From assembly GCF_000701345.1 (NCBI RefSeq), contig NZ_JNIJ01000009.1:124001-188000 (forward strand): a DNA stretch of 64,000 nucleotides, given 5' to 3'. The notes under the pieces are model-generated. The model was not told the DNA's origin. It did not search any database and was given only the letters and a program-made list of their open reading frames with translations. The translations under genes and the position numbers were made by a program. Below, in pieces: positions 5,580-27,898 of this stretch (the stretch's first letter is position 1; every line of letters starts with the position of its first letter). The DNA is from Bradyrhizobium sp. URHD0069. Its GTDB lineage: Bacteria > Pseudomonadota > Alphaproteobacteria > Rhizobiales > Xanthobacteraceae.

Positions 5580-7757
5580 ATGATCCTCGATCGCATCGCG
5601 TCCCGCACTCCTGACACGAATCTGTCGCGACGTAGCTTCCTGACAACCAGCGCGACGGTCGGCGGTGGTCTCATGCTGAGCCTCAGCCTGCCTCTTGGCC
5701 GAAGCGAAGCCGCTCGCCCCGATGGCTTTGCGCCGAACGCTTTCATTCGTATCGACAGCGACGGCCAGGTCGTCCTGACCATGCCTTATGTCGAGATGGG
5801 GCAAGGCACCTACACATCGATCCCGATGCTGATTGCCGAAGAGCTCGAGGTGAGCCTTAAGCAGGTGCGGCTGGAGCATGCGCCGCCGAACGAAAAGCTT
5901 TACGCCAACCCGTTGCTCGGCGTGCAGGCGACCGGCAATTCGAACGCGATGCGCGGTGCATGGAAGCCACTGCGTGAGGCCGGCGCCACCGCAAGGACCA
6001 TGCTGGTCGCAGCAGCGGCCAATCGCTGGGGGGTCGATGCAAAATCCTGCCGCGCGCAGGATGGCGAGGTGATCCATGTGTCGACCGGCCGGCGTCTGAA
6101 ATATGGCGAGCTGGCCGTCGAGGCGGCAAAGATGCCCGTCCCCGGAAATGTCACCCTGAAATCGCCGGAAGATTTCAAGCTGATCGGCACGCCGGCCAAG
6201 CGGCTCGATGCGCCGGCAAAGGTCAACGGGACCGCGGTCTACGGTATCGACGCTCGGCCGCCCGGCGTGAAGATTGCGACTTTGGCGCAATCGCCTGTGT
6301 TCGGCGGGCGCGTGAAGAGTCTGGATGACACGGCTGCCAGGGCGGTGAAAGGTGTGCGCCAGATCGTCCGGCTCGACGACGTGGTTGCGGTCGTAGCCGA
6401 TCATATGGGAGCTGCAAAAAAGGGATTGGCTGCGCTCAAGCTCGAATGGGATGACGGTCCGAATGCCAATCTCGCCACTGAAGAGATCGCGCGCGAGCTC
6501 GAACAGGCGACGCTTGGCTCGGGCGCTGTGGCGCACAACATCGGTGACGCTGACAAGGCCATGGCGAGTGCCGCCACCAAGGTCGAGGCGATCTATCACC
6601 TTCCATTCCTGGCCCACGCCACGATGGAGCCGATGAACTGCACGGTGCACTTCCGCAAGGATGAGTGCGAGATCTGGATCGGCAGCCAGGCTGTGGCGCG
6701 TGTCCAGGCGATGGCCGCGGAGGCCGCAGGCCTGCCGCCGGAAAAGGTCATCGTCCACAATCATCTGATCGGTGGCGGCTTCGGTCGACGGCTGGAGGCT
6801 GACGGTGCGGTCCGCGCCGTTGAGATTGCCAAGCATGTCGATGGTCCCGTGAAGGTCGTGTGGACGCGTGAGGAAGACATTCAGCACGACATGTACCGGC
6901 CTTATTGGTTCGACCGTATCTCCGCCGGGCTCAACGAGCAGGGCAGGCCGGTCGCCTGGAAGCATCGTTTCGCCGGCTCCTCGGTGCTTGCGCGATGGCT
7001 GCCGCCGGCCTTCAAGGACGGCCTCGATCCCGACTCGACGGAAGGCGCGATCGATCTCGTCTACGACCTGCCGAATTTCCACGTCGAATATATCCGCGTC
7101 GAGCCTCCGGGCATCCCGACGGCGTTCTGGCGCAGTGTCGGCCCCTCGCACAATGTCTTCGTCACTGAAAGCTTCATCGATGAAATGGCGGTCGCCGCGA
7201 AACAGGATGCGGTCGCCTACCGTCGAGCGCTGCTCGACAAGTCCCCGCGCGCCAAAGCGGTCCTTGATCTTGCCGCGGAAAAAGCCGGCTGGGGACAGGC
7301 CATGCCCAAGGGAACCGGTCGCGGCGTCTCGCTGCAGTCAGTGTTCGGCAGCTATCTCGCGCAGGTGGCCGAGGTCGAAGTCTCGAAAGAGGGCGCTGTC
7401 CGCGTCCGGCGTGTGGTCTGCGCGGTCGATTGCGGCACCGTGGTCAATCCCGATACGGTGCAGGCGCAGATCCAGAGCTGCATCATCTTTGGCGTAACGG
7501 CTGCGCTCTACGGCGAGATCACGCTGAAGAACGGCCGTGTCGAGCAGACCAACTTCGATACCTATCAGATGCTGCGCATAAATGAGGCGCCCGCGATCGA
7601 GGTCCACATCGTCAAAAGCGCGGAGCCGCCGGGCGGGATGGGTGAGACCGGGACATCGGTGATCGTTCCCGCGATCGCCAATGCGATCTTTGCCGCCACC
7701 GGTAAGCGCCTGCGCAAAATGCCGGTCGATGCCAGCGTGCTGAAACAACCGGTGTGA
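5580..7757 (+). CDS. Molybdopterin-binding large subunit, xanthine oxidase family (IorB-like)
   Basis: The gene starts at the ATG two bases after the small subunit stop, with GGGAGG in front; a longer upstream open frame is only overlap. The 725-residue product begins with a twin-arginine signal (SRRSFLTTSATVGGG and a hydrophobic run), so the folded enzyme is probably exported with its partner. Molybdopterin-binding features include VEMGQGTYTSIPMLIAEE, GGGFGRRLEADG and PGGMGETGTS, whose Glu is the conserved catalytic base. Substrate is not predictable; the family hydroxylates N-heterocycles, aldehydes or nicotinate. No XdhC-like maturation factor lies nearby. Confidence 0.9.
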   Translation: MILDRIASRTPDTNLSRRSFLTTSATVGGGLMLSLSLPLGRSEAARPDGFAPNAFIRIDSDGQVVLTMPYVEMGQGTYTSIPMLIAEELEVSLKQVRLEHAPPNEKLYANPLLGVQATGNSNAMRGAWKPLREAGATARTMLVAAAANRWGVDAKSCRAQDGEVIHVSTGRRLKYGELAVEAAKMPVPGNVTLKSPEDFKLIGTPAKRLDAPAKVNGTAVYGIDARPPGVKIATLAQSPVFGGRVKSLDDTAARAVKGVRQIVRLDDVVAVVADHMGAAKKGLAALKLEWDDGPNANLATEEIARELEQATLGSGAVAHNIGDADKAMASAATKVEAIYHLPFLAHATMEPMNCTVHFRKDECEIWIGSQAVARVQAMAAEAAGLPPEKVIVHNHLIGGGFGRRLEADGAVRAVEIAKHVDGPVKVVWTREEDIQHDMYRPYWFDRISAGLNEQGRPVAWKHRFAGSSVLARWLPPAFKDGLDPDSTEGAIDLVYDLPNFHVEYIRVEPPGIPTAFWRSVGPSHNVFVTESFIDEMAVAAKQDAVAYRRALLDKSPRAKAVLDLAAEKAGWGQAMPKGTGRGVSLQSVFGSYLAQVAEVEVSKEGAVRVRRVVCAVDCGTVVNPDTVQAQIQSCIIFGVTAALYGEITLKNGRVEQTNFDTYQMLRINEAPAIEVHIVKSAEPPGGMGETGTSVIVPAIANAIFAATGKRLRKMPVDASVLKQPV

Positions 7758-16826: not shown

Positions 16827-16881
16827 TGTCTATCTCTGGCGCTAAATCATTAAGAGCTGCCTTAAAGGGCTAAAGAATCTC

Positions 16882-16897
16882 GTTAACGGGAGATTAA
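16882..16897 (-). promoter_or_regulatory. CtrA-type binding site (TTAA-N7-TTAAC)
   Basis: Read on the minus strand, TTAA (16897-16894), seven bases and TTAAC (16886-16882) form a perfect match to the CtrA consensus. It lies 56 bp upstream of the histidine kinase start and points the same way. CtrA is the master cell-cycle and motility regulator of alphaproteobacteria. The match is exact, but binding is inferred. Confidence 0.55.
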
Positions 16898-17027
16898 ATT
16901 TGCCTGTTCCGCGGGCCTCTCGAAAGGGTACGGTTCCAGTCGGGCGATCTGCTCAGCCAGTCGCTGATTTTCAAATGCTGGCGACGAATATCCGTTAACG
17001 ACCGAAATTGAGAACCGAAATAAGGCA

Positions 17028-17234
17028 TCATCTCCAAAAACGCCGAAGCGTCGTATCGTTCCAGTTCTTGCAAAGGGCCTTCAACCGGCTGATGGGCTTC
17101 TTATCATCGGCATCCGCTTTGGCCTCATACTTCTCAGCCAACCGCAACAAGCGGCTCTTCTCGACCTGATCGGTAAGAGAGATGGCCAGCCTGCGGCAAA
17201 GCTTCGCCTGTTCTTGCTTGAACGAAGATTTCAT
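17028..17234 (-). CDS. Small hypothetical helical protein
   Basis: From the ATG at 17234 the product has 68 residues: MKSSFKQEQAKLCRRLAISL, then DQVEKSRLLRLAEKYEAKAD and a basic tail. This is the pattern of small rhizobial proteins of the form CRxLA-x-x-x-D-x-x-x-[K/R]-x-x-L-x-x-LA-x-x-Y-[E/D]-x-x-A, abundant in Bradyrhizobium and of unknown role. An upstream extension of 36 residues is open but unlike the family. Confidence 0.6.
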   Translation of the reverse strand: MKSSFKQEQAKLCRRLAISLTDQVEKSRLLRLAEKYEAKADADDKKPISRLKALCKNWNDTTLRRFWR

Positions 17235-17694
17235 CCTCGCGCCTTGTAGGTAACCGGAGGCCTCGGTTATCGCAGTGCCTAAGTGATGGAGTTGATATCC
17301 ATTAGAATATGCACACAGGCGCTTTGGAAGGAGATTATGCACACAGGCGCTTTGGAAGGCTTAGGACATATCGGCGCGGTCCGGTGAGCCGGCCGCGGTG
17401 GTTGCATCGCAGCAAAAATCAACATGCAAAAAAATTGCGAGGTCAGGAATTGGTCAAGGCGCTGCGGGTGGCAGAGGAAGCCCGTCGACAAAGGATTTAT
17501 CGGAACCGCGCTACGTTACACGCGCATTTTGTCAACTCCAGAATGTAGCCGTGATCCACACATCTCACTCGTTGAAGTTCCCCATTCGGACGCCGTACCT
17601 ACACTGCCCATTTGTTATTGACGGGCGTCAAGTCAGAGATGCCGCTCCCGGAAAACTCTATCCAGCTCGTGCTACACGCAGAACAGGCGTCTGC
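17235..17694. other. Intergenic region with a tandem duplication
   Basis: This 460 bp gap lies between the small minus-strand gene and the coiled-coil gene. It contains the 24 bp direct repeat annotated separately. A plus-strand frame open from 17398 runs into the coiled-coil gene but has no domain before 17695, so it is treated as the leader. Confidence 0.45.
17308..17359. repeat. 24 bp tandem direct repeat, period 28
   Basis: The sequence TATGCACACAGGCGCTTTGG plus AAGG occurs at 17308-17331 and again, identical, at 17336-17359, with AGAT between. An exact copy in non-coding DNA implies recent duplication. Confidence 0.85.
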
Positions 17695-20487
17695 ATGCGC
17701 CATGCCATCGAGACCGCACCGAGAGATGGGAAAGTCGTCATTCTCGAGGATGACGCCAGTGGGACCTATTACCTCGCTCACTGGTCGCCCGAGGTGGGTG
17801 CATGGGTCGGTGAATCCGGCGAGCCAATCAAAATCGCGCCGACGCATTGGCATCCAATGTCGCGCGACAAATATCTCCTGCAGGAGGACGAAGGATCCAG
17901 CAACCCCTCTCAGGTCGGGCCGTCGGGATGGCGGCGTCGCTATAATTTCTTCGTCGACGTCGTTGCAGCGGCAGCGCTCATCGGCCTGTTTTTTTATGTC
18001 ACCCGAGACGCCGGTCAACGGGATATCGTTAGGGTCGGCACGATCGTCGAGCAAGAGACCCGGTTGCCGAGCCAGGACTCGGGGAAGACCGACGTATTGG
18101 CGCTTGAGCAGCACGCCGAGGCCGATCAGGCCAGAGCGCAGTCGGGGGCGCAGGAAGCTGCGCAGGTCAAGCAGGCTGCGCAGGTCAAGCAGGCCGTGGA
18201 GGCGTCCGCGCCGGAAGCGCGACAATTTCTGGGTAAGGCGCAGCGTCCCGAGGTTTTGGCGAATGAGCTTGCCGACGCCGGGCGCGCCATCGAAGGGCTC
18301 GATGTGCAACTGCGGGCGGAAGCCGCGAACACCGCACAATCGCTCGGACAGGAGCGCGAGAAAACGGCCGCCCTCGCGCAGGAGGCCACCGCGGCGCGAC
18401 AAGAGCTGACCGCAAGCACGGCGCAACATCGTCAAGCGCTCGACGAGGAACGCGCGCGCAGTGCCGCACTGGCGAGCGAACTGGCGACGGCGCAGCGTGA
18501 AATTGAGACGCAGACGGCGCTGTTGAAGGCAAGCGAGGAAACAGCGCTGCTCAAGCAGGCGGAAGCCGCGAAGACCGCACAATCGCTTAGTGCCGCACTG
18601 GCGAGCGAACTGGCGACGGCGCAGCGTGAAATTGAGACGCAGACGGCGCTGTTGAAGGCAAGCGAGGAAACAGCGCTGCTCAAGCAGGCGGAAGCCGCGA
18701 AGACCGCACAATCGCTTAGTGCCGCACTGGCGAGCGAACTGGCGACGGCGCAGCGCGAAATTGAGACGCAGGCGGCGCTGTTGAAGGCGAGCGAGGAAAC
18801 AGGAGAGCTCAAGCAGGCGGAAGCCGCGAAGGCCGCACAATCGCTCGGACAGGAGCGCGAGAAAACGGCCGCCTTCGCGCAGGAGGCCGCCGCCGCGCAA
18901 CAAGAGCTGACCACGAGCACGGCGCAACATCGTCAAGCGCTCGACGAGGAACGCGCCCGCCGTGCCGCGCTGGCGAGCGAACTGGCGACGGCGCAGCGCG
19001 AAATTGAGACGCAGGCGGCGCAATTGCGCAAGGCGAGCGAGGAAACAGGGCAGCTCAAGCAGGCGGAAGCCGCGGAGACCGCACAATCGCCCGGACAGGA
19101 GCGCGAGACAACGGTCGCCCTCGCGCAGGAGGCCGCCGCCGCGCAACAAGAGCTGACCGCAAGCACGGCGCAACATCGTCAAGCGCTGGACGAGGAACGC
19201 GCGCGCAGTGCCGCACTGGCGAGCGAACTGGCGACGGCGCAGCGCGAAATTGAGACGCAGGCGGCGCTGCTGAAGGCGAGCGAGGAAACAGGGGAGCTCA
19301 AACAGGTGGCCGCGAAGACCGTACAATCGCTCGGACAGGAGCGCGAGAAAACGGCCGCCCTCGCGCAGGAGGCCGCCGCCGCGCAACAAGAGCTGACCAC
19401 GAGCACGGCGCAACATCGTCAAGCGCTGGACGAAGAACGCGCCCGCCGTGCCGCACTGTGGAGCGAACTGGCGGCGGCGCAGCGCGAAATTGAAGCGCAG
19501 GCGGCGCAATTGCGCAAGGCGAGCGAGGAATCAGGACAGCTCAAGCAGGCAGAAACCGCAAACAGCGCACAATCGCTCGAACAGGAGCGGCAGAAAACGG
19601 CCGCTCTCGCGCAGGAGGCCGCCGCCGCGCAACAAGAGCTGACCGCAATCACGGCGCAACATCGTCAAGCGTTGGAGGAGGAACGCGCCCGCCGTGCCGC
19701 ACTGTGGAGCGAACTCGCGGCGGCGCAGCGCGAAATGGAAACGCAGGCGGCGCAATTGCGCAAGGTGAGCGAGGAAGCAGGACAGCTCAAGCAGGCAGAA
19801 ACCGCAAACAGCGCACAATCGCTCGAACAGGAGCGGCAGAAAACGGCCGCCCTCGCGCAGGAGGCCGCCGCCGCGCGACAAGAGCTGACCGCAAGCACCG
19901 CGCAACATCGTCAAGCGTTGGAGGAGGAACGCGCCCGCCGTGCCGCACTGGCGAGCGAACTGGCGACGGCGCAGCGCGAAATTGAGAAGCAGGCGGCGCT
20001 GTTGCGCAAGGCGAGCGAGGAAGCAGGACAGCTCAAGCGGGCGGAAGCCGCGAAGACCGCACAATCGCTCGGACAGGAGCGGCAGAAAACGGCCGCCCTC
20101 GCGCAGGAGGCCGCCGCCGCGCGAAAAGAGCTGACCGCAAGCACGGCGCAACATCGTCAAGCGTTGGAGGAGGAACGCGCCCGCCGTGCCGCACTGGCGA
20201 GCGAACTGGCGACGGCGCAGCGCGAAATTGAGAAGCAGGCGGTGCAATTGCGCAAGGCGAGCGAGGAAACAGGGCAGCTCAAGCAGGCGGAAGCCGCGAA
20301 GACCGCACAATCGCTCGGACAGGAGCGCGTGAAAACGGCCGCCCTCGCGCAGGAGGCCGCCGCGCGACAAGAGCCGACCGCACGCACACGGCGCCACGTC
20401 GTCAAGCGCTCGACGAGGAGAGCGCGCGCGGCGCCGAACTGGTTCGCGATCTGGCCATGGCAAAGCGCGAAATTGAGACGCTGGTAG
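17695..20487 (+). CDS. Membrane-anchored repetitive coiled-coil protein (frameshifted C-terminus)
   Basis: The start is placed at MRHAIETAPRDGKVVILEDD, a domain start I recognise from rhizobial proteins; the frame is open 99 codons further upstream without support. The 930-residue product has an N-terminal domain (1-60) rich in Trp and His (YYLAHWSPEVGAWVGESGEP), a single membrane helix (84-103) and then more than 700 residues of Ala/Gln/Glu/Lys-rich heptads. The heptad region is made of repeats of about 82 residues (ALAQEAAAAQQELTASTAQH, QALDEERAR, ASELATAQREIETQA, KASEETGQLKQAEA). At about 20380-20402 a net +2 insertion relative to other copies changes frame, so the annotated end is an aberrant Arg-rich tail. 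The function is unknown; a cell-envelope or polar scaffold is possible. Confidence 0.8.
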   Translation: MRHAIETAPRDGKVVILEDDASGTYYLAHWSPEVGAWVGESGEPIKIAPTHWHPMSRDKYLLQEDEGSSNPSQVGPSGWRRRYNFFVDVVAAAALIGLFFYVTRDAGQRDIVRVGTIVEQETRLPSQDSGKTDVLALEQHAEADQARAQSGAQEAAQVKQAAQVKQAVEASAPEARQFLGKAQRPEVLANELADAGRAIEGLDVQLRAEAANTAQSLGQEREKTAALAQEATAARQELTASTAQHRQALDEERARSAALASELATAQREIETQTALLKASEETALLKQAEAAKTAQSLSAALASELATAQREIETQTALLKASEETALLKQAEAAKTAQSLSAALASELATAQREIETQAALLKASEETGELKQAEAAKAAQSLGQEREKTAAFAQEAAAAQQELTTSTAQHRQALDEERARRAALASELATAQREIETQAAQLRKASEETGQLKQAEAAETAQSPGQERETTVALAQEAAAAQQELTASTAQHRQALDEERARSAALASELATAQREIETQAALLKASEETGELKQVAAKTVQSLGQEREKTAALAQEAAAAQQELTTSTAQHRQALDEERARRAALWSELAAAQREIEAQAAQLRKASEESGQLKQAETANSAQSLEQERQKTAALAQEAAAAQQELTAITAQHRQALEEERARRAALWSELAAAQREMETQAAQLRKVSEEAGQLKQAETANSAQSLEQERQKTAALAQEAAAARQELTASTAQHRQALEEERARRAALASELATAQREIEKQAALLRKASEEAGQLKRAEAAKTAQSLGQERQKTAALAQEAAAARKELTASTAQHRQALEEERARRAALASELATAQREIEKQAVQLRKASEETGQLKQAEAAKTAQSLGQERVKTAALAQEAAARQEPTARTRRHVVKRSTRRARAAPNWFAIWPWQSAKLRRW
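18340..20402 (+). repeat. 246 bp tandem repeat array inside the coiled-coil gene
   Basis: Copies of the block encoding QERxKTAALAQEA start near 18352, 18856, 19099, 19339, 19585, 19831, 20077 and 20323. The spacing of the last four is exactly 246 bp, and one earlier unit is 240 bp. Within the array, a 129 bp sub-unit beginning AGTGCCGCACTGGCGAGCGA is directly duplicated at 18460, 18589 and 18718. The units keep the reading frame, apart from the final one. Confidence 0.9.
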
Positions 20488-20567
20488 CGCTGTTGCGCAA
20501 GGCGGACGACGAAGCAGTGCCGTTCAAGCAGGCGGCGGATATGCGGATGCTCTTCGCCGACTACTGA
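20403..20567 (+). other. Out-of-frame continuation of the coiled-coil gene
   Basis: From 20403 a different plus frame resumes the repeat pattern: QALDEESARGAELVRDLAMA, then KREIETLVALLRKADDEA and VPFKQAADMRMLFADY before TGA at 20565-20567. This is the natural C-terminus that the frameshift at about 20380-20402 disconnects. Either the gene is a recent pseudogene at its 3' end, or the assembly has an error, which tandem repeats favour. Confidence 0.7.
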
Positions 20568-20878
20568 TCAAGCCAGGCTATACCGAGGTCGAGGGCGCGG
20601 CACGAAACCCGAAGGGCAATTTTTGTTGGCGATTTTGTTGATCGGGGCCACGGGCAACGGGAAGTTTTGCAGATCGCGCGCGCCATGTGTGAGGCGGACA
20701 CCTTCGACTTGGCCGCCTGCTTGCTCGCCTTTTTCGCGCCGCGCTGCGCCATAGCCGCAAAGGTCTTCACGGAACAGGCATCGGCATTAAGCGAGCGAGG
20801 GCTGCTTGCGGCAGCCCTCGACTACAGTCGCGAGGGTGACACGCTTGTGGTTACGAAGCTCGTTGTTGAGTGCGAAGC
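20568..20878. other. Intergenic region with a GC-rich hairpin
   Basis: CGAGGGCTGC (20796-20805) pairs perfectly with GCAGCCCTCG (20811-20820) around a 5-base loop. It lies downstream of the minus-strand dehydrogenase gene and could end its transcript, although no T run follows. A Lys/Ala-rich minus frame at 20561-20770 was not accepted as a gene. Confidence 0.45.
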
Positions 20879-21748
20879 TCAGCGTTCCAAGCGGGCGAGC
20901 AGGCTGGAAGTGTCCCAACGCTTGCCGCCCATCTTCTCGACCTCCGAATAGAACGCATCGACCAGCGCGGTGACCGGCAGGCTGGCTCCGTTGCGCCGTG
21001 CCTCGGCAAGACAAATCGAGAGATCCTTGCGCATCCATTCCACCGCAAAGCCGAAGTCGAATTTTCCCTCGTTCATGGTCTTGTAACGGTTTTCCATCTG
21101 CCAGGACTGCGCGGCGCCTTTCGAGATGGTGTCGATCACCGCGTGGACGTCGAGTCCGGCTTTTTTCGCAAAATGAATGCCCTCCGAGAGTGCTTCGACC
21201 AGGCCGGCAATACAGATCTGGTTGACCATCTTGGTCAGCTGGCCTGAGCCCGCTGGCCCGAGCCGCTTGCACATCCTGGCATAGGCCGCGATCACGGGCT
21301 CGGCGCTTGCGCAAGCGTCTTCGCTGCCGCCGCACATCACGGTCAACGCGCCGTTTTCCGCACCGGCTTGTCCGCCGGATACCGGGGCATCGACGAACTT
21401 GAAGCCGCGTTTGGTCGCCTCCGCATCGAGCTCGCGCGCAATCTCGGCCGAGGCGGTGGTGTGATCGACGAAGGTCGCGCCTCGCTTCATGCCCGCGAAT
21501 GCACCGTCGGCGCCGATCGTGATCGCACGGAGGTCGTTGTCGTTGCCGACGCAGGCCATGACGAAATCCTGGCCTTCCGCTGCAGCTTTCGGCGTCGGCG
21601 CCGTGCGGCCGCCGAATTTTTCGGCCCATGCCTTCGCCTTGGACGACGTCCTGTTGAAGACCGTCACCTCGTGACCGCCTTTTTTCACCAGATGTCCTGC
21701 CATCGGGAAGCCCATGACGCCGAGACCGAGAAAAGCGACTTTAGCCAT
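20879..21748 (-). CDS. NAD(P)-dependent beta-hydroxyacid dehydrogenase (3-hydroxyisobutyrate dehydrogenase family)
   Basis: The 289-residue protein has the Rossmann loop FLGLGVMGFPMAGHLVKKG at the N-terminus and the substrate-binding motif DAPVSGGQAGAENGALT near residue 120. The catalytic Lys is in GSGQLTKMVNQI near residue 172. This is the full beta-HAD signature shared by 3-hydroxyisobutyrate, tartronate semialdehyde and 6-phosphogluconate-like dehydrogenases. Substrate cannot be read from sequence. It is divergent from the VOC gene 227 bp away. Confidence 0.92.
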   Translation of the reverse strand: MAKVAFLGLGVMGFPMAGHLVKKGGHEVTVFNRTSSKAKAWAEKFGGRTAPTPKAAAEGQDFVMACVGNDNDLRAITIGADGAFAGMKRGATFVDHTTASAEIARELDAEATKRGFKFVDAPVSGGQAGAENGALTVMCGGSEDACASAEPVIAAYARMCKRLGPAGSGQLTKMVNQICIAGLVEALSEGIHFAKKAGLDVHAVIDTISKGAAQSWQMENRYKTMNEGKFDFGFAVEWMRKDLSICLAEARRNGASLPVTALVDAFYSEVEKMGGKRWDTSSLLARLER

Positions 21749-23784: not shown

Positions 23785-24873
<1,089 letters not shown>

Positions 24874-25122: not shown

Positions 25123-26211
25123 ATGAAGCGACGAGACTTTATCAAGGTCACCGGAATAGGCGTGGCAGGTGCTGCGACGCTGGCAGCGCCGGCGATCGCG
25201 CAATCGATGCCGGAGATCAAATGGCGCATGACGGCAAGCTGGCCGAAGTCGCTCGACACGCTGTGGGGCGGCGTCGAGCAGATGGCGAAGGCGGTCGGCG
25301 AAGCCACCGACAACAAATTCCAGATTCAAACCTTTGCCGCTGGCGAAATCGTACCGGGCCTGCAGGTTCTTGACGCCGTGCAAAATGGCACCGTCGAGAT
25401 GGGACATACGGCGTCCTACTATTACTTCGGCAAGGATCCGACATTTGCCTTCGGCACGGCGGTGCCGTTCGGGCCCAACCAGCGCATCAATCAGGCATGG
25501 TACATGCTCGGCGGCGGCAAGGAACTCCTCAACGATTTCTTCAAGGGCTACAATGTTCATTCCGTTCTCGCGGGCAATACCGGCTGCCAGATGGGAGGCT
25601 GGTTTCGCAGGGAGATCAACAGCGTCGATGATTTGAAGGGGCTCAAGGTGCGCATCGGCGGCTTTGCCGGGCGTGTCTTGCAGAAGCTCGGCGTCGTCCC
25701 GCAGCAGCTCGCCGGTGGCGATATCTATCCGGCGCTCGAAAAAGGCACCATCGATGCCGCCGAGTGGGTCGGTCCCTACGATGATGAGAAGCTCGGCCTC
25801 TACAAGGTCGCGCCGCACTACTATTATCCCGGATGGTGGGAAGGCGGCCCGATGCTCATGGCCTACATCAATCTCGAGAAATGGAATGCGCTGCCCAAGC
25901 ACTATCAAGCCATTATCGAGCAGGCTGGACAGTATGCCAACAACTGGATGATGGCGAAGTACGATCAGGGTAATCCGCCGGCGCTGCGCAAATTGCTGGC
26001 CGGCGGTAGCAAGCTGCATTCGTTTTCGCCGCCGATTATGCAGGCCTGCCTCAAGGCTACGAAGGAACTATACACCGAAACTGCGGCGACCAATCCGAAT
26101 TTCAAGAAGGTGCTGGAGTCGATGACCGCTTTCTCGAACAACGGATACCAATGGTTCCAGGTCGCGGAGCTCGGTTACGACAGCTTCATGGCGCGCAATC
26201 CGCAGGGTTGA
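25123..26211 (+). CDS. TRAP transporter receptor, TakP-like (second paralogue)
   Basis: A close paralogue of the gene at 23785 with the same length (362 residues) and signal type (MKRRDFIKVTGIGVAGAATL). The conserved ligand-site motifs are SWPKSLDTLWGG, NTGCQMGGWFRREI and [14 protein letters not shown]. Between the two, the segment around residues 105-135 differs most (FGPNQRINQAWYMLGGG against [17 protein letters not shown]). The two receptors may offer different 2-oxo acids to one permease. CCAGGAGAGG precedes the ATG. Confidence 0.92.
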   Translation: MKRRDFIKVTGIGVAGAATLAAPAIAQSMPEIKWRMTASWPKSLDTLWGGVEQMAKAVGEATDNKFQIQTFAAGEIVPGLQVLDAVQNGTVEMGHTASYYYFGKDPTFAFGTAVPFGPNQRINQAWYMLGGGKELLNDFFKGYNVHSVLAGNTGCQMGGWFRREINSVDDLKGLKVRIGGFAGRVLQKLGVVPQQLAGGDIYPALEKGTIDAAEWVGPYDDEKLGLYKVAPHYYYPGWWEGGPMLMAYINLEKWNALPKHYQAIIEQAGQYANNWMMAKYDQGNPPALRKLLAGGSKLHSFSPPIMQACLKATKELYTETAATNPNFKKVLESMTAFSNNGYQWFQVAELGYDSFMARNPQG

Positions 26212-26290: not shown

Positions 26291-27898
26291 CTACTGTTTT
26301 GCTGGAGGACCGAAATCCAGCGGCGGCGGAAGTTCGATCTCCGGAACCTCGATCTTGATCTTGTTCAGATCGACGTTCAGCGGCCTGTCGAGCAGGCCGG
26401 TCACGGTGATCGGGAAGGCAATCACGAGTGCGACCATGATCAACTGCAATCCGATCCAGGGCAGCGCGCCCCAATAGATGTCGGAGCTCTTCACTGATTT
26501 CGGAGCGACACCGCGCAAATAGAACAGCGCAAACCCGAATGGCGGATGCAGGAACGACGTCTGCATGTTCACGCAAAGCATCACGCCGAACCAGATCAGC
26601 GCGGCATCCGGTCCGACAACCGGCGTCAGGAGTTTCTGCGCGATCGGAGCGATCATCGGCAGAATAATGAAGGCAATCTCGAAGAAATCCAGGAAGAACG
26701 CCAAGAAGAAAATGAAGAGATTGATGAAGATCAGGAAGCCCCAGACACCGCCGGGCAACGACGTAAGCAGATGCTCTAACCATACGCCGCCGGAGACGCC
26801 GAGGAACACCACCGAGAAACAGGTTGAGCCGATCAGGATGAACACCACCATGGTGGTAATGCGCATTGTCGTCTGATAGCCCTGCTTGATCAGGTCTCGC
26901 AGGGCGGGAATGCGGACCGCCTCGAGGCAAATCCACACCACCGCGAAATAGGTGATGGCAAAAGCGATCTTGAAGATAAGTCCCGCTGTAAAGAACATGC
27001 CGATTATGGTGCCGATACCGGCGGCGATCACACCGGCGACCAAGATTTTGTGGCCCGTCGTGCTGAATTCCTTGCTGTGTATCGCTGCGAGCACGATGGC
27101 GCCGACCGCGCCCATGGCGCCAGCCTCGGTCGGCGTTGCAAGACCCATCATCATAGTGCCGAGTACGACGAAGATCAGCACGGCCGAGGGGATGATGCCA
27201 AGCAGACATTTGCGCCAAAGCGGCCAGCCGGTCAGCGTCAACTCGGTCTTCGGTACCGGCGGCACATGGTCCGGTTTGATGAGGCCAAGCAAAAACGTGT
27301 AGCCGGCGAACAGTGCGATCTGGAAAAGCGACGGTCCCCACGCCCCAAGATACATATCGCCGACCGACTTGCCGAGCTGATCGGCCAGCACGATGAGCAC
27401 GAGCGAGGGGGGCACGAGCTGCGTGATCGTCCCGGACGCCGCCAGCACGCCGGTGATGTAGCGGATATTGTAGCCGTAGCGGATCATCACCGGCATCGAG
27501 ATCATCGCCATGGCGATAACTTGCGCCGCCACCGTACCGGTGATGGCTCCAAGGATGAAGCCGACGATGATGACTGAGTAGCCGAGGCCGCCGCGGATCG
27601 GTCCAAAGAGCTGCCCCATCGAATCGAGCATGTCTTCTGCAAGACCGCACCGCTCGAGGACTGCACCCATGAACGTGAAGAAGGGTATCGCGAGCAGAAG
27701 TTCGTTCGAAAGAACACTGCCGAATATGCGGCCCGGAATCGCCTGAAGAAAATTCAGGTCAAAGAAACCGAGATGGATCGCTAGGAAGCCGAACGAAAGT
27801 CCTACCGCGGCGAGCGTAAAGGCTACCGGGAAGCCGATCAGCATGGACAGAACCAAACCGCCGAACATCAGCGGTGGCATCATTTCCAGCGTGATCAT
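26291..27898 (-). CDS. TRAP transporter large permease (DctM/TakM-like)
   Basis: The 535-residue protein is a multi-helix membrane protein with DctM hallmarks: ELLLAIPFFTFMGAVLERCG, ASGTITQLVPPSLVLIVLAD, GLATPTEAGAMGAVGAIVLA and TSFLHPPFGFALFYL. It is about 100 residues longer than the usual DctM because of an insertion of extra helices in the middle, as in TakM-type permeases for 2-oxo acids. Its start overlaps the DctQ stop by four bases. It imports the substrate handed over by a TakP-type receptor using the sodium gradient. Confidence 0.93.
   Translation of the reverse strand: MITLEMMPPLMFGGLVLSMLIGFPVAFTLAAVGLSFGFLAIHLGFFDLNFLQAIPGRIFGSVLSNELLLAIPFFTFMGAVLERCGLAEDMLDSMGQLFGPIRGGLGYSVIIVGFILGAITGTVAAQVIAMAMISMPVMIRYGYNIRYITGVLAASGTITQLVPPSLVLIVLADQLGKSVGDMYLGAWGPSLFQIALFAGYTFLLGLIKPDHVPPVPKTELTLTGWPLWRKCLLGIIPSAVLIFVVLGTMMMGLATPTEAGAMGAVGAIVLAAIHSKEFSTTGHKILVAGVIAAGIGTIIGMFFTAGLIFKIAFAITYFAVVWICLEAVRIPALRDLIKQGYQTTMRITTMVVFILIGSTCFSVVFLGVSGGVWLEHLLTSLPGGVWGFLIFINLFIFFLAFFLDFFEIAFIILPMIAPIAQKLLTPVVGPDAALIWFGVMLCVNMQTSFLHPPFGFALFYLRGVAPKSVKSSDIYWGALPWIGLQLIMVALVIAFPITVTGLLDRPLNVDLNKIKIEVPEIELPPPLDFGPPAKQ

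Follow-up and report, generated by a model that had tools for sequence, protein, structure and literature searches.

TolA is held by an inner-membrane anchor, sends a long helix towards the periplasm and ends in a C-terminal module; the usual width of the periplasm is 20-30 nm. Coiled coils are treated as spacers (PMC5082667), the polar growth proteins of the Rhizobiales include a TPR/Sel1 protein and a SPOR protein (PMC7327166), and a review that covers TAXI and orphan binding proteins reports TAXI-TRAP systems as always occurring with fused DctQM permeases (PMC5812351). Here, we have compared with its relatives a rod gene that is located in the window, i.e. the whole 64-kb stretch of DNA that was analysed. 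We consider it fairly probable that this gene is a displaced, C-terminally truncated and repeat-expanding paralog within a family of probably periplasm-facing rods; an initial annotation, which had likened it to phase- or length-variable surface rods, is partly supported.

The rod gene and its repeat array

The gene is laid out in the window as follows:

17695-20487, plus strand: rod gene, 930 aa as read, with a Trp/His domain, one membrane helix, repeat units and a broken terminal unit
17695-17880, plus strand: Trp/His-containing N-domain of about 62 aa, without a Pfam match
17947-18003, plus strand: membrane helix, residues 85-103, with a net charge of +3 before it and +1 after it
18334-18576, plus strand: repeat unit 1, 81 codons
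18460-18846, plus strand: three tandem 129-bp copies, from TRF and codon reading
18835-20304, plus strand: six further repeat units of 80-82 codons each
20305-20487, plus strand: main-frame version of the terminal unit; past a 2-bp insertion near 20379-20386 its tail is out of frame and runs to a stop
20397-20567, plus strand: what remains of the terminal coil unit, read in the shifted frame; it is homologous to other units as far as about 20540, after which come unrelated residues and a stop

The Trp/His-rich N-domain and the single membrane helix that had been described from the first reading are both present, and the N-domain carries the consensus residue at 12 of the 12 columns that are invariant or nearly invariant in a 14-row alignment. 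The 246-bp array is equally real: TRF reports 9.0 copies at 18315-20535, with 85% matches, next to 3.0 copies of a 129-bp unit at 18460-18845. In codons, the order of the array, which had been counted as at least eight 246-bp units, is 81, two of 43, then 82, 80, 82, 82, 82, 82 and the terminal unit, i.e. seven full-length units of 80-82 codons (240-246 bp each), two extra 129-bp units and one terminal unit. The 129-bp copies at 18460-18588 and 18589-18717, which had been called almost identical, differ at 0 of 129 positions, and the third has 9 differences over the same length; we read this as a recent tandem duplication inside the array, as had been proposed.

The reading frame is open for 930 codons, for which the chance from base composition is about 9e-10; the other two plus frames contain 14 and 19 stops, and the antisense frames 1, 15 and 20. 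Since one antisense frame contains just 1 stop, the open frame rules out chance less firmly than it appears to. Minus-strand mirror ORFs are located opposite the rod gene at 17599-19509 and 19531-20523 (1 stop in 930 codons), and this long antisense frame is likely an effect of codon composition.

The heptad character that had been assigned to the units is broadly right: with an L/I/V/M/F/W indicator, the hydrophobic period is 3.54, with a power of 0.35, and none of 60 shuffles exceeds 0.20; on the Kyte-Doolittle scale the top power is 10.7 at a period of 3.24, inside the shuffle range (mean 10.0, top 14.5). The period of 3.54 fits a coiled coil; the Kyte-Doolittle scale gives no signal above the shuffles.

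The rod family and its TAXI neighbour

By its sequence, the window gene belongs with a group of membrane-anchored coiled-coil proteins that forms a family in Bradyrhizobium and Bosea: it has the family signature, in which an N-domain with conserved A, P, W, P, H and W is followed by one membrane helix. The best match to the window protein outside its own genome, among 265 genus genomes, is 57% identical over 153 residues. Family matches occur in 44 of 146 genus genomes at E 0.001 and in 20 of 265 at E 1e-20 or better, while a profile of the N-domain matches 9 of 297 genomes of the order (four of the genus Bradyrhizobium and five weak ones); the named relatives are B. tropiciagri, B. ivorense, two Bosea strains and one further member of the Rhizobiales.

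Modules and neighbours were compared in a set of 43 genes, which consists of 36 of the 52 non-own matches, the window gene, its paralogs on contigs C2 and C42 of the same genome, and four of the five named loci; the fifth, L102, is on a contig that breaks off inside the gene and was not included. The architecture read from these genes is an N-domain, a membrane helix, a coil, built of tandem units in many members, and a C-terminal module. The modules, counted by blastp, are TPR-like in 35 genes and BA14K-type in six, and two genes, the window gene and L069, have neither. The TPR label is a mild one, TPR_14 being over the Pfam cut-off for the ends of L037 and C42 and just under it for L105; the full BA14K motif is over the cut-off in three of the six BA14K-type genes (L044, L058 and C2). 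The other three, L038, L056 and L059 (genomes G120, G103 and G057), have the common pre-motif region, followed by a different, mutually similar basic tail. L069 (G051:C91) has the N-domain and the helix with an unrelated C-terminal half, and is without TPR, BA14K or TAXI.

TRF ranks a period of 246 bp first in the window gene, C2, L040, both Bosea genes and four of nine further genes that are introduced below; other members have periods of 147-489 bp or no TRF array. Paralog C2 (539 aa) has about three 246-bp units and a BA14K end (PF07886, E 2.2e-7), and paralog C42 (702 aa) has 297-bp units and a TPR-like end. A DUF551-like N-domain was considered and rejected, as Pfam gives no such match at E 10 in four N-domains scanned. 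Structure prediction of the first 129 residues gives a weak small beta domain, the two models being poor (pLDDT 66 and 62), and the first of them has no match in the PDB at E 0.001.

The N-side of the helix is the more positive one in 34 of the 43 genes, the window gene included, a rule that fails in 9 of 43; together with the likely periplasmic TAXI partner described below, this charge pattern suggests that the N-domain is located inside and the coil in the periplasm. The same pattern bears on the proposal that the gene encodes a surface rod, whose unit number differs among isolates and alters the reach of the protein. The very recent 129-bp duplication would agree with such a rod, as would the wide variation of array length across species (proteins of 265-1056 aa among the 43 genes and of 440-989 aa among the nine further ones), so that length does differ greatly among paralogs and species. 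Against it, the charges suggest an N-in orientation and no outer-membrane or secretion family is found among the Pfam and NCBIfam matches, which leaves surface exposure unsupported. Reach is not an obvious function either, because a straight coil of 690 residues is computed to measure about 102 nm, i.e. several periplasm widths. Finally, the unit lengths are multiples of three, so the gain or loss of a unit alters the length and keeps the frame, and a single 2-bp indel is found, at the very end; phase variation is unsupported, and we regard the surface rod as very improbable.

Of the 35 TPR-type members, 30 are followed, at a distance of 43-592 bp, by a TAXI gene in the same orientation, as against 0 of the 6 BA14K-type members and 0 of the 2 others; the TAXI gene is assigned by NMT1_3, which is over the Pfam cut-off, and by NCBIfam TRAP_TAXI at E 3e-11, which is under its cut-off. 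The pairing is not obligatory: five of the 35 TPR-type members are without a TAXI neighbour, among them C42, which has a 35%-identical TAXI gene in a different arrangement, and in the reverse direction 8 of 18 near relatives carry a TAXI gene of at least 66% identity, and seven of these TAXI loci have a TPR/coil gene upstream in three cases and no rod gene upstream in four. A 210-aa gene located behind the TAXI gene has a match in 29 of 30 TAXI loci and in 0 of 12 other loci searched (in the 30th TAXI locus, L035, the available sequence ends within a few bases of TAXI), and it has no Pfam or NCBIfam match (L127 8221-8853); the rod, TAXI and 210-aa genes may form a three-gene unit.

Around the rod-TAXI pairs of G144, G110, G031, G087 and G050 and around the TAXI gene on contig C52 of the window genome, the matches listed include no DctM permease at a distance of 40 kb or less (11 of the 12 matches of the window genome being among those listed); the nearest listed DctM is about 43 kb away, in G144. 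The window itself contains two tandem 362-aa paralogs at 23785-24873 and 25123-26211, which we take to resemble DctP-type TRAP binding proteins, and a DctM match is located near them (C6:150954, window position 26954). No publication on the rod family or the rod-TAXI pair was found by titles and the starts of abstracts, a search outside which most papers in subscription journals fall.

Probable displacement and truncation of the window copy

The surroundings of the window gene, and the site from which a rod gene seems to be missing, contain the following features:

16901-20877, unstranded: extra block of about 4 kb between a histidine kinase gene and a 3-hydroxyisobutyrate-dehydrogenase-like gene
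17304-17359, unstranded: 28-bp direct duplication upstream of the rod gene, 27/28 identical
17596-17694, plus strand: 5' flank common to the C2 paralog, 82% over 100
20742-20861, plus strand: serine recombinase fragment, 22 plasmid records by tblastn, best E 6e-6
L127 (G000:C52:13000-23000) 7053-7109: rod-gene stub on contig C52, 57 bp, 98.2% identical to the C42 3' end
L127 7205-8224: TAXI gene on C52, with the stub directly upstream

The kinase and dehydrogenase genes adjoin, with a gap of 125-1312 bp, in 10 of 10 relatives chosen from 146, and blastn finds no coil match in the gap of these ten; homology to their intergenic regions stops at 16892-16936 and resumes at 20876-20879. The 5' flank is also common, from 17616, to a tip-less copy of genome G545 (82% over 78). 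Most of the 12 listed plasmid matches to the recombinase fragment are annotated as recombinase; its Pfam Resolvase match (E 0.023) is under the cut-off and is not among the matches for a longer stretch. The C30 copy of G050 (L044) was rejected as a positional ortholog, as it is located past the kinase and the next gene and so occupies a different site.

One TAXI gene of the window genome, the one on C52, is close to the family partners (87%), while three others are at 26-39%. The 57-bp stub that precedes it has, to judge by its match to C42, the form of a footprint of a lost or moved rod gene; since the stub alone precedes this TAXI gene, the rod gene seems gone from its usual place, and three copies live elsewhere. 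Farther upstream on C52, none of the genes matches anything in 42 loci searched.

At its 3' end, the window gene is broken. The terminal unit had been credited with a net +2 insertion: the 2-bp insertion and its effect on the frame are there, but relative to two other units compared an in-frame 3-bp loss accompanies it, and the net length change is -1. The main-frame translation stops at 20487, while the coil runs on in a different frame until the stop codon 20565-20567, as had been observed; the ending LFADY, however, is not the natural C-terminus that it had been taken for, as likeness to family members stops at about 20535-20540 and the C-terminal modules of the family are missing. Neither a TPR-like nor a BA14K-type module is found in the window in any frame downstream of the rod gene, PF07886 is absent over the Pfam cut-off from the window protein and from its last 224 residues, and the whole 64-kb window has no match to two TAXI queries. 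A TPR or BA14K remnant was sought 3' of the gene and none was found; a phosphatase fragment at about 20.64 kb, proposed from a GDFVDRG-like string, is without Pfam support and was dropped.

In the shifted part, the differences at codon positions 1/2/3 are 8/13/22 against C2_3, 10/9/17 against C42_1 and 9/9/16 against C42_4, an excess at position 3 that is not seen against five window units, C2_1 or C2_2; the excess indicates that the frameshift is probably recent, or is a sequencing error. The second option belongs to a wider explanation, in which the draft assembly is wrong in part of the array or in the 2-bp insertion. Repeats in a single draft assembly of 129 contigs invite such errors, but the window units differ from one another, single-contig genomes contain arrays and lost ends of a similar kind, and the loss of the module is independent of the frameshift, given that no module is found in any downstream frame; we consider an assembly error quite unlikely. 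At an end that was already without its module, the frameshift looks like decay of an unneeded part.

The single-contig genomes are part of a search of ten loci, from which L155 and L157 were dropped because the search pattern gave no gene there. Of the nine further genes, four (L150, L152, L154 and L156) have a TPR end and a TAXI gene; L151a has a TPR end, L153 a BA14K end and L149 and L151b no tip, and these four are without TAXI; L158 is L105 again and is uncounted. In G545, a TPR rod is located beside TAXI (L150) and the second copy, L149 (969 aa), is tip-less, with an array that is 92% homogeneous; in G507, an intact pair (L152) occurs together with a tandem of the TPR rod L151a and the tip-less L151b (989 aa), whose array is 94% homogeneous. 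The arrays of the intact rods are less homogeneous (L150 81%, L152 84%), and that of the window copy stands at 85%. Similar tip-less copies with homogenised arrays in two single-contig genomes show the pattern to be a recurring one. A Y2 transposase (PF04986, E 3e-36) is located 3' of L149, and a resolvase-type helix-turn-helix (E 9e-4, under the cut-off) 3' of L151b; the two copies have a common 75-bp junction (89%), although the tree separates them.

This tree contains 49 of 51 genes, L039 and L069 being left out. In it, the window copy groups with C2 (86/89, a branch without a star), and L151b groups with L151a (100/100), the TPR-ended gene beside it in the tandem; this suggests that tips were lost twice or more. 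Against it, the starred branches are compatible with one origin in a label count (with the BA14K and tip-less rows alone, the shuffles are as low in 500 of 500), and L149 and L151b have their junction in common. More than one loss is thus suggested by the tree but not compelled by the label count.

Whether such a copy still does anything is the point on which an alternative must be weighed, namely that the window gene is a dying copy, under no selection since its relocation and the loss of its end module, so that the array expands and the frame shifts without consequence. The missing module and the frameshift, the recombinase scrap and the non-native position all fit such a copy, as does the fact that in two other genomes the tip-less genes continue into sequence unrelated to the family, close to remnants that resemble a transposase or a recombinase; the 0 sigma-70-like promoters found in 16850-21000 are uninformative, 0.5 being expected by chance. 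Against it, the gene retains 930 stop-free codons and the consensus in its conserved N-domain columns, and its units differ at codon positions 1/2/3 by 42/10/56 (504 codon comparisons). With C42 as the outgroup, 29 sites of the window lineage give 14 synonymous and 15 nonsynonymous changes, i.e. fewer nonsynonymous changes than the neutral expectation of 70-75% (P 0.006-0.030, the range depending on the assumed transition bias). The C2 lineage has 10 and 26 (P 0.42-0.68, with the same dependence), so that the sister that has kept its end module shows no such constraint. The pN/pS is 0.56 over all pairs of the seven window units, pairs that are not independent, and 0.54 for the N-region of the window gene against C2. 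These values are modest evidence that the N-terminal part of the window copy may still matter, and we hold the dying copy to be possible but doubtful.

Proposed role and comparison with known systems

In the reading that we prefer, a displaced and truncated paralog, the N-domain would be cytoplasmic, and the coil would dimerise and run in the periplasm; in intact members, to judge by the gene order, the TPR-like end would hold or read the co-encoded TAXI protein, which, with no permease gene found nearby, would act as a tether or receptor and not as an uptake system. The window copy, as far as its sequence tells, would have retained the anchor and the rod and lost the end piece; its repeats would have been multiplied and homogenised, probably by unequal recombination, and its 3' end would then carry an acquired frameshift. 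If it still acts, the protein would be a tip-less rod that, for example, pairs with its two paralogs. In a bolder version, which we regard as unlikely, the membrane-anchored rods with a TPR-like tip in Bradyrhizobium and Bosea would partner orphan TAXI proteins as receptors or tethers instead of transporters, and the recurring displaced, tip-less copies with expanding arrays would pair with intact rods and so compete with them, their length being adjustable.

Taken by itself, the window gene is a modest case of the expansion of a coiled-coil array after a functional end was lost. The pairing of rod and TAXI genes is the more interesting lead, since a conserved pair of a membrane rod and a TAXI-like protein, with no transporter gene found nearby, offers a testable idea for a TAXI role without a permease.

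The closest systems are found within the family. The TPR-type rods of B. ivorense (L105 6001-8502) and Bosea sp. WAO (L101) have the same N-domain, membrane helix and coil as the window protein, and in addition a TPR-like end and a TAXI gene downstream, whereas the window copy has neither. The BA14K-ended C2 (PF07886) is 84% identical to the window copy in the N-region and shares with it the 246-bp units and the 5' flank, but C2 retains its BA14K end, while the original end of the window copy, of whatever kind, is gone. Outside the family, the resemblance to TolA, whose model is absent from the Pfam matches up to E 1, is a comparison of how the proteins may work, and the C-terminal modules differ. 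The resemblance to TAXI-TRAP lies in the neighbour of the intact rods, a TAXI-like solute-binding protein; TAXI-TRAP pairs such a protein with fused DctQM, whereas the rod loci set it beside a membrane rod, with no DctM listed within 40 kb in six genomes.
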